NCBI RefSeq assembly: GCF_003722315.1
Contig: NZ_CP033580.1
Location: 1,611,001 to 1,675,000 of the forward strand
DNA length: 64,000 bases
Direction: 5' to 3'
Source of the DNA: Thermoanaerobacter ethanolicus JW 200
GTDB lineage: Bacteria > Bacillota > Thermoanaerobacteria > Thermoanaerobacterales > Thermoanaerobacteraceae
Shown in pieces: positions 8,889 through 47,284 of the stretch. The notes beneath the pieces were generated by a model, which saw nothing but the letters and a program-made list of their open reading frames with translations, was not told where the DNA came from and made no database searches. A program made the translations under genes and the position numbers. Every line of letters begins with the position of its first letter. The stretch's first letter is position 1.

Positions 8889-9224
8889 TTATCTGTTTTT
8901 TATATCATCAGTGATGACGTTGCATTGTTTTTTATCTGCGTGTTGAACAATCACAATGCCTACTAAGATTACTAGTGTTCCAATAACTAATTGCATGGAT
9001 ATTTTTTCTGAGAGAAGAATCCATGCGAGCAAACTGGCTAGTACAGGTTTTATAAGAAATATCATGGACCCCACTCCTGCATCCATATACATAAGTCCCA
9101 TGAAGTAAGTGTAATAAGCTATACCTGTTACGAAAAATGTGAGATAAGCCATAGGCAATAATGCCTTATACGGCATGTAGAATATAGGATAATGCTTTAT
9201 TAAAAGTATTGGTAGTAAAAACAA
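8889..9224 (-). pseudogene. EamA/DMT-family transporter, C-terminal half
   Basis: 111 residues with three to four membrane helices and the typical second EamA repeat: AYYTYFMGLMYMDAGVGSMI, FLIKPVLASLLAWILLSEKI and QLVIGTLVILVGIVIV. Full-length members are near 290-300 residues, so the N-terminal half is missing; the break lies close to 9225, next to the repeat array. No start signal of its own was found. Substrate unknown. Confidence 0.7.
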
Positions 9225-9263: not shown

Positions 9264-9493
9264 AGCCTTTAATTTACTATATGGGTTGACATATGCATGA
9301 TGATAAAGGCTTTAAACATTGCATGATAAGTTTTTTTAAATTACCATATGGGTTAACATACCAGACTGTGTGATGGGAATATGCAAAATATTTTTTGTTT
9401 TTTGGACTACTATATGGGTTGACATACAACAGTAGGGATATAGAGAATTTTTGAGATGATTAAGTTTTTAGATTACTATATGGGTTGATACAG
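9264..9493. CRISPR. Decayed CRISPR-like array, four repeats and three spacers
   Basis: Four imperfect ~30-bp repeats share the core TACTATATGGGTTGACATA (C or A substitutions in some), preceded in three of them by GTTTTTT or GTTTTTA. Cores begin at 9276, 9343, 9409 and 9475, a period of 66-67 bp that leaves unrelated spacers of about 36, 36 and 37 nt. Repeat length, spacer length and the GTTTTTA...GGGTTGA pattern resemble clostridial type I-B repeats. A weaker GTTTTTTAAAGTACT at 9534 may be a fifth decayed unit. No cas gene occurs in the window. Confidence 0.55.
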
Positions 9494-9690
9494 ACAAACA
9501 GTGTAAAGAAAGTCTTTCATAGAGATATCCCCTGTTTTTTAAAGTACTTATTTTTTCAAATGCCATTTTAGTTTATTAGAGGAATGCTCGTATTTAGTTC
9601 TATTATTAAATGTGGTGTTAGTATATTATTGTAGACACTTTAACTCGAACAGGATAAAATAGAAATATAAAGAGAGGAAGTGTCTACAAA

Positions 9691-9966
9691 ATGCCAAGAG
9701 GACAAAGAAAATATAATGATGAATTCAAGAGTACTATAGTAGAGTTGTATAACCATGGTAAAAGTCTAGCAGAACTTTCAAGCGAATATGGCATTTCAAA
9801 ATCCACAATATCAGGTTGGTTAAAAAAAGCAAAACCAATAAATATAGACAACAAAGACACAACAATTACAGTAGCAGAATATCAGGCTATGTTAAAGAAG
9901 ATGGCAAGGCTTGAAGAGGAGAATGAAATATTAAAAAAAGCCATGGCCATATTCGCAAAGGAGTAA
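9691..9966 (+). CDS. IS3-family transposase orfA (HTH)
   Basis: Ninety-one residues: MPRGQRKYNDEFKSTIVELY, a helix-turn-helix YGISKSTISGWLKKAKP, then a coiled-coil tail MLKKMARLEEENEILKKAMA. It is the intact DNA-binding first ORF. The A7G run at 9933-9940 within the ILKKA codons is a typical -1 slippage site that would fuse it to orfB. With orfB broken, only orfA and a short fusion can be made. Confidence 0.85.
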   Translation: MPRGQRKYNDEFKSTIVELYNHGKSLAELSSEYGISKSTISGWLKKAKPINIDNKDTTITVAEYQAMLKKMARLEEENEILKKAMAIFAKE

Positions 9967-10262
9967 GCTCTATATTTGACTTTATTGAGGAAAATAAAAA
10001 ATATCATAATGTTAAATTAATGTGTGAGGTTTTAAAGGTTTCAAGGAGCTCCTATTATAAGTATCTTCATAAAACAGAAAGCAAGAGAAGTAGAGAAAAC
10101 AGGATGTATGAGGAAGAAATAATGAAGATATATGAAGGAAGCAAAAAGCGTTATGGAGCTCCCAAAATTCACAAAATGCTTGTAAATAAAGGATATAATA
10201 TAAGTCTCAAAAGAGTTCAAAGACTAATGAATAAGTTAGGTATAAAGTCTATAATTGTTTAG
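9933..10262 (+). pseudogene. IS3-family transposase orfB, N-terminal part
   Basis: In the -1 frame from the A7G run the reading is open as HGHIRKGVSSIFDFIEENKK, then LMCEVLKVSRSSYYKYL and KKRYGAPKIHKMLVNKGYNI (HTH_21 domain). The ATG at 10020 lies inside this. It stops at a TAG near 10260; a few missing bases then shift the continuation. The catalytic DDE domain is missing. Confidence 0.75.
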
Positions 10263-10494
10263 ACCTTACAGTTCGAGCAACAGAGTAGAAGAAAAAGAAA
10301 ACATTTTAAATAGGGATTTTTCTACCACTACGATTAATCAAAAGTTTGAAGTTTTAAAGACACTACATAGACTAACAAATTGTCTACTTCTTTATATACA
10401 ATTATTTCTTTGTTGTCGGAGTCTAAAAGCACTATATGGGTTTAAAAATCTTTTTAATACTTTTATAAACAGTCTATCAAAAGGAGTGTGGTAT

Positions 10495-11504: not shown

Positions 11505-11518
11505 ATGAGGTGAATTTA

Positions 11519-12904
11519 ATGTTCATTGGTAGAGAGTATGAACTTGAAACATTAAACAAACTTTATAATGAAGACAAATTTCATTTTATAGTAATGTATT
11601 GGAGAAGACGTGTGGGAAAGACTACATTATTGACCGAATTTTGCAAAGATAAACCGTCAATATTTTTTGTTGCCGAAGAATACAATGATAAAATTGCTCT
11701 TGAGTCTTTTTCAGATAAAATACTATCATATTTTGGACTGGGTGGATTAGTAAGTAGGTTTGAATCATGGGAAAAAGCGTTTCTCTTTTTAGCACAGCAG
11801 GCGAAAGATAAACGATTAGTTGTTGTAATTGATGAATTCCCATATATAGTCAATTCAAACAAAAGTATTCCATCACTTTTACAAAATTTAATAGATCATC
11901 ATTTAAAAGACACTAAACTTTTTTTGATTATCTGTGGTTCTTCTGTAAGTTTTATTGAAAAAGAGATTTTAAGTTATAAAAGCCCTTTATATGGGAGAAG
12001 AACTGCTCAGTTAATAGTGGAACCTTTCAATTTTTTTGAAAGCAGAAAGTTTTTTCCTAACTATGATTTTGAAAACCAAGTTATAGCCTATGGAGTTTTA
12101 GGAGGGATTCCTCAATATTTAAATAACTTTGACAGTACAAAAGACGTATACGAAAATATTAAAACAAAGATACTGGACAAAGCATCTTATCTTTACGAAG
12201 AGCCTAAATTACTATTAAGACAGGAGGTAAGAGAACCTTCATTATATAACTCAATAATAGAAGCAATAGCAAGTGGAAGCAGTAAATTAAACGAAATATC
12301 TACAAAGGTAGGAGTTGATACTGATAAATGCTCGAAGTATATTTCTACGCTAATAGACTTAAAAATTCTTGAAAAAATTACTCCTGTTGAATTGAAAGAT
12401 AAAAGCAGAAAAAGTATTTATAAAATTAAAGATAATTTTTTCAGGTTCTGGTATAGATTTGTCTTCACTAACAAAGCTTTAATTGAGCAAGGTTTGATTG
12501 ACGAAGTTCTGGAAAACAAGATTAAACCCTTCATAAATGAGTTTATAGGGGAAGTTTATGAGGAAATATGCATGGACTATCTTAAGATTTTAAACAAAAA
12601 GAAGAAATTACCTTTCATTTTCGAAAAGATAGGTAAGTGGTGGGGAAATAATCCTTATAAAAGGCGTGAAGAAGAAATTGACATAGTGGCCCTTGACAAA
12701 AATAACATAATATTTGGGGAATGCAAATGGCAAAACAAGAAAGTGGATATAAGTGTTTTGAACAGTTTGATAGAAAAAAGTGCTTTGTTTAATTATCAAA
12801 ATAAGTATTATATATTATTTTCAAAAAGCGGTTTTACAGATGATGTGATAAATTTTGCAAAGAACAATAGCAATGTTTTTTTGATTGAAAAATTTGATAA
12901 GTGA
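11519..12904 (+). CDS. Archaeal-type AAA ATPase with DUF234 nuclease-like C-terminus
   Basis: 461 residues from the ATG at 11519, placed 7 nt after GAGGTG. The N-terminal ATPase_2 domain has MFIGREYELETLNKLY, a P-loop written WRRRVGKTTLL where the family has GRRRVGKT, and Walker B LVVVIDEFPYI. A winged-helix region follows. The C-terminal DUF234 domain has a PD-(D/E)xK-like EEIDIVALDK ... GECKW. Such proteins are poorly characterised and often sit in mobile or toxin-like contexts. The Gly-to-Trp change at the first P-loop position may reduce ATP binding. The gene stands alone behind an operator array. Confidence 0.8.
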   Translation: MFIGREYELETLNKLYNEDKFHFIVMYWRRRVGKTTLLTEFCKDKPSIFFVAEEYNDKIALESFSDKILSYFGLGGLVSRFESWEKAFLFLAQQAKDKRLVVVIDEFPYIVNSNKSIPSLLQNLIDHHLKDTKLFLIICGSSVSFIEKEILSYKSPLYGRRTAQLIVEPFNFFESRKFFPNYDFENQVIAYGVLGGIPQYLNNFDSTKDVYENIKTKILDKASYLYEEPKLLLRQEVREPSLYNSIIEAIASGSSKLNEISTKVGVDTDKCSKYISTLIDLKILEKITPVELKDKSRKSIYKIKDNFFRFWYRFVFTNKALIEQGLIDEVLENKIKPFINEFIGEVYEEICMDYLKILNKKKKLPFIFEKIGKWWGNNPYKRREEEIDIVALDKNNIIFGECKWQNKKVDISVLNSLIEKSALFNYQNKYYILFSKSGFTDDVINFAKNNSNVFLIEKFDK

Positions 12905-45372: not shown

Positions 45373-47284
45373 GTGCGCCCGGCATGGGCGATAGCTAGGC
45401 GGTGAAAGTCCGCTGTGGGCTTGGTAGTGGGAACCACTAGCCAAGAGCAAGGGTGTCCATCGTGAGGTGGAATCTGAAGGAAGCTTAAGGCAAAATCTCG
45501 GTCTGATGAACAAGAACCAGATAAGAGGCTGAATTGGGGTGGATGAGTTTGCGTAACAAAACGAAGTCCAACACTACCCGAATCCCATACAGTAAATCTG
45601 GCAGATATATGAGATGAAAGTTATCGTTCTTACCCGGGGAGGTCTCAAGGATAAGTCATGGAAGTAAAATCTGAAGTGACAACCCATGCAGTGATGTATG
45701 GCTGAACCTTGAGAAGTCAGCAGAGGTCATAGTACTTATCTAGACATGAATAGATAAGGAAGGACCGAACGTTAGGAGGTTTTGGAAATCTTATGGACTC
45801 GAAAGATATGCAGAGACTGCAGACAACTCAACAAAGAGGCTATCCGTTGAATAGAGAAATGGAATTTCAAAAGACAACGGAAGTGCATAGTATATCATCG
45901 GCGTCGGAAGATGGAAGAAACGAGGTACAAAGATATACCGGCAAGATGCTTGAAATGATAGTAGAACGAGGGAACATGAGAGCAGCATACAAGCGCGTTG
46001 TTGCAAATAAAGGAAGCCATGGAGTCGATGGGATGGAAGTAGATGAACTTCTACCGTATCTCAAAGAAAACTGGCCAACCATAAAACAACAACTGCTGGA
46101 GGGGAAATACAAACCACAACCAGTGCGAAGAGTAGAAATTCCCAAACCAGATGGAGGAGTAAGACTCCTAGGAATACCTACAGTACTAGACAGACTAATA
46201 CAACAAGCAATAGCCCAAATACTAAATAAAGTCTACAACCATACATTTTCAGATAGCAGTTATGGATTCAGACCAGGACGCAGTGCAAAAGACGCAATAA
46301 AAGCCGCAGAAGCATACATAAATGAAGGATACACATGGGTTGTAGATATGGACTTAGAAAAGTTCTTTGACAGAGTAAACCACGACATAATAATGTCCAA
46401 ACTAGAAAAGCGGATAGGAGATAAAAGGGTACTAAAGTTAATACGAAGATACCTAGAATCAGGAGTAATGATAAACGGAATCAAAGTATCAACAGAAGAA
46501 GGGACACCCCAAGGAGGGCCATTAAGTCCCCTATTAGCAAACATAATGTTGGACGAACTAGACAAAGAACTTGAGAAACGAGGGCATAAATTCTGCCGAT
46601 ATGCAGATGACTGCAACATATATGTAAAAAGCAGGTCTGCAGGAAACAGAGTAATGAAGAGCATAAAGAAATTCATAGAAAGCAAATTAAAACTAAAAGT
46701 CAACGAAGCAAAAAGTGCTGTAGATAGACCATGGAGAAGAAAATTTCTTGGATTTTCATTCTATACAAAAGAAAACGAAGTAAGAATAAGAATCCATGAA
46801 AAATCCATCAAAAGGTTTAAGGAAAAAGTAAGAGAAATAACCAATCGGAACAAGGGAATAAGCATGGAAAACAGAATAAAAAGACTAAATCAAATAACAA
46901 CAGGATGGGTCAACTATTTTGGATTAGCAGACGCGAAAAGCATAATGAAAACCCTTGACGAATGGATAAGGCGAAGACTAAGGGCATGTATATGGAAACA
47001 ATGGAAGAAGATAAAAACGAAGCATGATAACTTAGTAAAACTAGGAGTAGAAGAACAAAAAGCCTGGGAATACGCCAATACAAGGAAAGGCTACTGGAGA
47101 ATATCCAATAGCCCAATCCTAAATAAGACTCTTACAAATAAATACTTTGAAAGCATAGGTTATAAGAGTTTATCCCAAAGATATCTAATTGTACACAATT
47201 CCTAATGAACCGCCGTATACCGAACGGTACGTACGGTGGTGTGAGAGGACGCTGAATAAAATAATTATTCAGCTCCTACTCGAT
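45373..47284 (+). mobile_element. Group II intron with maturase ORF
   Basis: The 5' end GTGCGCCCGGCATGGGCG and GGCGGTGAAAGTCCGCTG are typical of bacterial group II introns; the ribozyme 5' domains run to about 45790. Domain V is at about 47207-47242: ACCGCCGTA pairs with TACGGTGGT around CCGAACGGT. Domain VI follows (GCTGAATAA / TTATTCAGC), with a 3' end near CTACTCGAT at 47284. It lies directly behind a terminator hairpin. It appears complete. The exact 3' boundary is an estimate. Confidence 0.85.
45793..47205 (+). CDS. ltrA: Group II intron reverse transcriptase/maturase
   Basis: 470 residues after AGGAGG. RT motifs are present in order: VRRVEIPKPDGGVRLLGIPT, DSSYGFRPGRSAKDAIKAA, WVVDMDLEKFFDRVNHD, GTPQGGPLSPLLANIMLDEL, FCRYADDCNIYV (YADD catalytic centre) and RKFLGFSFY, then the maturase X domain (ITTGWVNYFGLAD). 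There is no HNH endonuclease domain after it. It splices and mobilises its own intron. Intact, so probably active. Confidence 0.95.
   Translation: MDSKDMQRLQTTQQRGYPLNREMEFQKTTEVHSISSASEDGRNEVQRYTGKMLEMIVERGNMRAAYKRVVANKGSHGVDGMEVDELLPYLKENWPTIKQQLLEGKYKPQPVRRVEIPKPDGGVRLLGIPTVLDRLIQQAIAQILNKVYNHTFSDSSYGFRPGRSAKDAIKAAEAYINEGYTWVVDMDLEKFFDRVNHDIIMSKLEKRIGDKRVLKLIRRYLESGVMINGIKVSTEEGTPQGGPLSPLLANIMLDELDKELEKRGHKFCRYADDCNIYVKSRSAGNRVMKSIKKFIESKLKLKVNEAKSAVDRPWRRKFLGFSFYTKENEVRIRIHEKSIKRFKEKVREITNRNKGISMENRIKRLNQITTGWVNYFGLADAKSIMKTLDEWIRRRLRACIWKQWKKIKTKHDNLVKLGVEEQKAWEYANTRKGYWRISNSPILNKTLTNKYFESIGYKSLSQRYLIVHNS

Follow-up and report, generated by a model that had tools for sequence, protein, structure and literature searches.

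A probable relic of a cas-less CRISPR array with transposon-derived spacers in Thermoanaerobacter ethanolicus JW 200

Are a few worn, regularly spaced repeats beside a broken insertion sequence the remains of a CRISPR array and, if so, what did that array once record? We addressed this question for a locus of Thermoanaerobacter ethanolicus JW 200. It lies in a stretch of 64,000 nucleotides (the window, G000:C1:1611001-1675000) of the complete 2.91-Mb chromosome. The original prediction, made from the letters of this stretch, described an orphan and decaying CRISPR-like array. Our analyses support that interpretation of the locus as a genuine CRISPR relic, and we consider it probable that the array is a decayed, cas-less member of the type I-B kind with spacers derived from transposons. 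Beyond the first reading, they show where the spacers came from and that the repeats are kin to those of the resident type I-B system, provide evidence of decay in one lineage, and reveal a fifth repeat along with similar arrays scattered over the genus.

Layout and surroundings of the array

Four degenerate 30-nt repeats lie on the + strand with starts at 9265, 9332, 9398 and 9464 (periods of 67, 66 and 66 nt). The spacers between them (37, 36 and 36 nt) are mutually unrelated in sequence, so the arrangement of four ~30-bp repeats 66-67 bp apart with unrelated spacers of 36-37 nt was described correctly. Repeat R1 (9265..9294, GCCTTTAATTTACTATATGGGTTGACATAT) is worn at its 5' end and is followed by spacer S1 (9295..9331), repeat R2 (9332..9361), spacer S2 (9362..9397), repeat R3 (9398..9427), spacer S3 (9428..9463) and repeat R4 (9464..9493, GTTTTTAGATTACTATATGGGTTGATACAG). 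The count of four holds for 9265-9493, but it overlooked a fifth, half-preserved repeat on the same strand, R5 (10420..10449, ACTATATGGGTTTAAAAAT), past the IS3 remnant. The 29-nt repeat consensus was matched three times in the window with at most three mismatches, and never in 100 dinucleotide shuffles, while the 17-nt repeat core had five matches against 0.15 expected from shuffles. A possible extra relic repeat at 9534 was rejected, as the repeat model gave it no support.

Direct repeats of ~23-50 nt, regular spacing and unique spacers of like length are features of CRISPR arrays, and all are present here. CRISPR repeats should also be near-identical, but R1-R4 are only 77-83% identical to the reference copy, and we therefore class the array as decayed and not active. 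No leader was recognised when this was checked, as the original prediction had proposed: the left side is occupied by an EamA fragment, promoter matches at the array did not rise above chance and no terminator was found. Rfam models gave zero matches on the locus.

Pfam confirmed the two broken genes that had been reported to border the array. To the left is a truncated EamA transporter gene (8889..9224, - strand), which is missing from the copy of the locus in genome G004. To the right is an IS3-type remnant (9613..10262, + strand) with an HTH_Tnp_1 ORF (9691-9966) and a truncated HTH_21 ORF (10020-10262); its left end is inferred from sequence common to other copies, and its right end was not found. 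Stranded between array and remnant is the 3' end of a short gene (9548-9594, - strand; as in G003:C4, ...FVKEYEHSCNKLKWHLQK), of which the final 30 bases are multicopy in genomes G025 and G032. Of the 47 window ORFs of at least 170 aa, 44 were scanned with PADLOC models and none was identified as a cas gene; within this scope the earlier claim that the 64 kb contain no cas gene is correct. A reverse transcriptase gene at 45793-47205 matched the PADLOC Cas1-RT fusion models through its RT part only. This 470-aa ORF, of the group II intron type by reading, is one of several near-identical copies in the genome (others at L009:7957-11266 and L010:17247-18659). An ATPase-like protein encoded at 11510-12904 (+ strand) matched PDC-S27, a model of a candidate defence system (4e-61). 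The label 'orphan' is right locally, but a type I-B locus that looks complete and includes a long array is present on the same chromosome.

Spacers from insertion sequences

The original prediction proposed a search of the spacers against phage, plasmid and IS sequences. We combined a DNA search of relatives with a direct scan of sequences, and all three spacers matched transposase genes of insertion sequences. Each match spans the exact bounds of the spacer, and no repeat is present at the match site. S1 matched at 30/37 positions in G003 and G007 and at 27/37 in its own genome. S2 matched at 30/36 in its own genome (six places) and in G004, and at 29/36 in G001 and G002. S3 matched at 31/36 in G001, G003, G004 and G006, and at 30/36 in G007 and at a second place in G003. 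The maxima from 60 dinucleotide shuffles per spacer against 404 kb of DNA were 28, 25 and 26 for S1, S2 and S3, respectively. All the match sites fall within transposase genes. These genes belong to three different IS families of the genus, with DUF772 and DDE_Tnp_1 domains, and each spacer is antisense to its gene. Because the matches respect the spacer bounds and lie far above those of shuffled sequences, S1-S3 are genuine CRISPR spacers derived from transposons, and one of the targeted families is resident in six copies. Changes were too few for the codon positions of the mismatches to tell decay of the spacers from divergence of the source IS.

Searches of plasmids and phages for the array returned nothing or matches at chance level, and neither the host repeat nor the exact repeat consensus was found in viral contigs. 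The repeat-pair pattern had two matches in viral contigs, both of which were set aside as coding sequence or another repeat by reading, with no CRISPR layout. We also searched 72 spacers of the intact resident array against the genus (E <= 1e-4) and obtained no protospacer, the single match being a spacer in another array; this query was longer and less sensitive, and S1 and S3 would miss the same cut, hence the control does not prove that the targeting of insertion sequences is special.

Kinship with the resident type I-B system and decay in one lineage

In the resident type I-B locus, the cas genes that were looked for and the array have the order cas6, cas8b, cas7, cas5, cas3, a 74-repeat array, cas4 and cas1. 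Its cas genes are at about C1:261-278 kb, including the genome's sole cas1 (C1:261242-262081), and its array is at about C1 263055-269610. The 74 repeats are intact and 30 nt long, with spacers of 35-39 nt and a period of 66-67 nt. A transposase gene, IS110-type by reading, interrupts the array (L009:17678-19290). Another, from the family targeted by S1, lies between cas8b and cas7 in the opposite direction (L010:7908-9242; C1 about 273.9-275.2 kb) and carries a 27/37 match to S1. The flanking cas ORFs look complete, and the insertion may interrupt transcription. In another species (G003 C15, L115:1500-1530), an array with the repeat GTTTTTAGCCTACCTAAGAGGGATTGAAAC contains a spacer that shares 93% identity with the resident array's second spacer over 30 nt.

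Comparison of the window repeats with those elsewhere in the genome had been suggested, and it was the host's own type I-B repeat (GTTTTTAGCCTACCTATAAGGAATTGAAAC) that aligned with the window consensus (z 5.4, p <= 2e-4). The two have GTTTTTAG..TA.CTATA.GG..TTGA..AC in common. Judged by this alignment, the window repeats are of the same general kind as the host repeat, yet form a distinct subfamily with the core CTATATGGGTTGA. The window array resembles the resident array in its 30-nt repeats, spacer range and 66-67-nt period, and these I-B dimensions support the reading as a decayed I-B array. It differs in having four to five worn repeats instead of 74 intact ones, and cas genes are present in the same genome but none was found near the window array. 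The I-B array of T. kivui (repeat GATTTAATCCAACCATACTGGAATTGAAAG; PMC12044746) likewise combines a 30-nt repeat with 36-37-nt spacers, but similarity to its repeat is weak (z 2.6-4.0), and it is intact and functional.

Comparison with another species, G004, revealed how the window copy has changed. Contig C13 of that genome carries a copy that spans R2 to the IS3 start. Identity between the two genomes is 97.5% over R2-R4, 96.3% over the non-array debris after the array and 97.3% over the IS3 start; the neighbouring MBL-fold gene reaches 84%. Judging from these identities, the block from the array to the IS3 start travelled or was inherited as one, and the array is no better kept than the debris. 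Four changes could be polarised, two in the core of R2 and two adjacent ones in S2. All were derived in the T. ethanolicus JW 200 genome, because G004 has the bases that are common to the other repeats and to the IS. Together with the lack of extra conservation, these changes indicate that the window copy is decaying, in line with the original reading of an abandoned array, although this evidence amounts to a handful of substitutions between a single pair of genomes. A search of G061, a genome of the same species, did not find the array.

A scattered repeat family and competing readings

The original prediction suggested an abandoned array, but the case is not an isolated one, as the same degenerate repeat kind was found at several unlinked loci of the genus. 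G061 has six repeats at spacings of 59-81 (G061:C1:1973643-1974005; L060:5330-6400, - strand), with a promoter match (TTGATT-16-TATAAT with TG) and a terminator-like hairpin past the last repeat. This array is directly before a PhdYefM antitoxin gene, for which no toxin partner was recognised, and it is absent from the JW 200 genome. Three repeats are present in G003 (C3:139784-139919; L089:3284-3450), where the first spacer is only ~17 nt; by eye, TTGATA-17-TATAAA is upstream and a long perfect hairpin is right after the last repeat, neither of which was flagged by the scan. Four repeats were found on G004:C78, two on G003:C18 (L032:9290-9420) and one on G004 C25 (L091:2670-2710). A solitary repeat in G007 (C1:643340-643363; L090:2040-2063) is just past a putative toxin-antitoxin pair, which we take to be UPF0175/DUF3368. 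Past the last repeat, G004 C25 and G003 C18 share a sequence (GAAAAATTTTTCTC.CAATTTTC...) that may mark the end of a mobile element; G003 C18 has two occurrences of part of this sequence.

Matches were confined to this genus both when 398 genomes of the phylum were searched with a paired-repeat pattern and when the repeat was searched for across the class, and neither search yielded an intact array of the CTATATGGGTTGA subfamily. Among genome contigs, the exact 18-nt core occurred only in the G004 genome and at a single, isolated site in GC-rich Chloroflexi DNA. When five degenerate repeats were folded singly, a clear central stem was predicted only for the G004:C78 repeat. The spacers of the other degenerate arrays yielded a single good seed match, in which 24/25 nt of G061 spacer 3 agreed with a gene found in both G004 and G006. 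The remaining candidate targets were discarded as at or near chance level, among them a cas6-like gene (E 0.07) and a conserved gene similar to those for ribosomal proteins. A single decayed array does not predict such scattered repeats without an intact parent, nor that two other arrays of the family keep promoter-like and terminator-like ends. Both observations count against our preferred reading.

The promoter- and terminator-like ends of the G061 and G003 mini-arrays are among the observations that speak for a functional ectopic array, similar to CreA/CreR in working principle, as a reading of the window locus, which we regard as unlikely. Host Cas6 would process its transcript, and Cascade loaded with imperfect spacers would bind without cutting and damp the transposases. 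The host has cas6, cas8b, cas7, cas5 and cas3, and degeneration is known in functional ectopic repeats (PMC9458426, PMC8501985). Wear is concentrated at the 5' end in first repeats and at the 3' handle in last repeats, a pattern that fits guide RNA use, although few repeats are involved and ordinary arrays normally have worn trailer repeats too. The three antisense spacers have 5-7 mismatches to their transposase genes, and the first 13 nt of S3 are identical to the target, which leaves an intact seed. However, S1 has seed mismatches and S2 has one at position 4. The 5' flanks of the targets are CTT/CCT (S1), TCG (S2) and TTG (S3), whereas the T. kivui I-B system uses the PAM CCN, with TTG as an inactive control (PMC12044746). 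Given these flanks and the diversity of I-B PAMs, with CCN, TCN, TTN and TTG among them (PMC8482600), no single PAM is established. The window copy also has neither promoter nor terminator, is under no constraint relative to debris, carries the derived changes in R2 and S2 and is not shared with G061.

CreA itself (CreTA; PMC9458426, PMC8501985) resembles the window array in that degenerate repeats outside a CRISPR array flank a guide with a partial target match in a type I host. It has one or two repeats and targets the promoter of an adjoining RNA toxin, whereas the window array has four to five repeats and targets the coding regions of three dispersed transposases instead of a linked creT promoter. 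No creT-like partner of the window array was recognised. Self-targeting spacers (reviewed in PMC6990116) can likewise match host-integrated transposons and be tolerated through inactivation; unlike in the reviewed cases, all three spacers are of this sort here, and the repeats are worn and distinct from those of the active array. The scattered loci could also be a dispersed Thermoanaerobacter family of stand-alone mini-CRISPR transcription units (a promoter, two to six worn repeats and a terminator), with Cascade repressing without cutting, here transposases in a piRNA-like manner, and the window copy as a dying member. We consider this improbable.

Could the array instead derive from a type III system or another I-B system that is not kin to the resident one? 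The three antisense spacers would suit type III, which needs guides antisense to mRNA (one in eight by chance), a type III system and two I-B systems have been reported for T. kivui (PMC12044746), and no intact parent of the CTATATGGGTTGA subfamily turned up. The best alignment was nevertheless with the resident I-B repeat, and the second T. kivui I-B repeat scored lower, so we hold this origin to be distinctly unlikely. Some repeat families include type III as well as I-A and I-B members (PMC8482600), which makes the two readings hard to separate. Finally, the original prediction stated that conservation of spacers and repeats together as one unit in other genomes would indicate a tandem repeat or an iteron set and not CRISPR; such conservation does occur in one relative, G004, at 97%, but a non-CRISPR periodic element is scarcely credible, as a repeated 66-bp unit is contradicted by the unlike spacers, Tandem Repeats Finder did not report the array in the window, and the same repeat accompanies different spacers at other loci. 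Since each spacer matches a transposase gene elsewhere without a repeat, we interpret the conservation in G004 as shared descent or transfer of the locus.

For the preferred reading, a decayed array of the I-B kind, we propose the following history. The array once stored spacers captured from three transposase genes, as their matches show. In its live stage, by analogy with the family, it would have been transcribed from the + strand, Cas6 would have cut within the repeats and the crRNAs would have guided Cascade to transposase DNA. A likely cause of abandonment is that the targets turned into resident multicopy transposons, which would have made an active array useless or self-damaging. The remnant now lies far from any cas operon, with an IS3 insertion within or next to its right part and the EamA fragment on its left, and, in the one comparison made, its repeats and spacers accumulate changes as fast as the debris around them.

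The window copy itself is thus best seen as a relic. Its three spacers show that the CRISPR memory of the genus was aimed at insertion sequences, which remain resident to this day; an element of one targeted transposon family has since invaded the resident cas operon. By analogy with CreA (PMC9458426, PMC8501985), some members of the repeat family, perhaps once including the window copy, may act as guides for Cascade-mediated repression. With scattered degenerate repeats for which no intact parent was found, the choice between debris and reuse as regulators becomes testable for worn ectopic arrays distant from cas loci.
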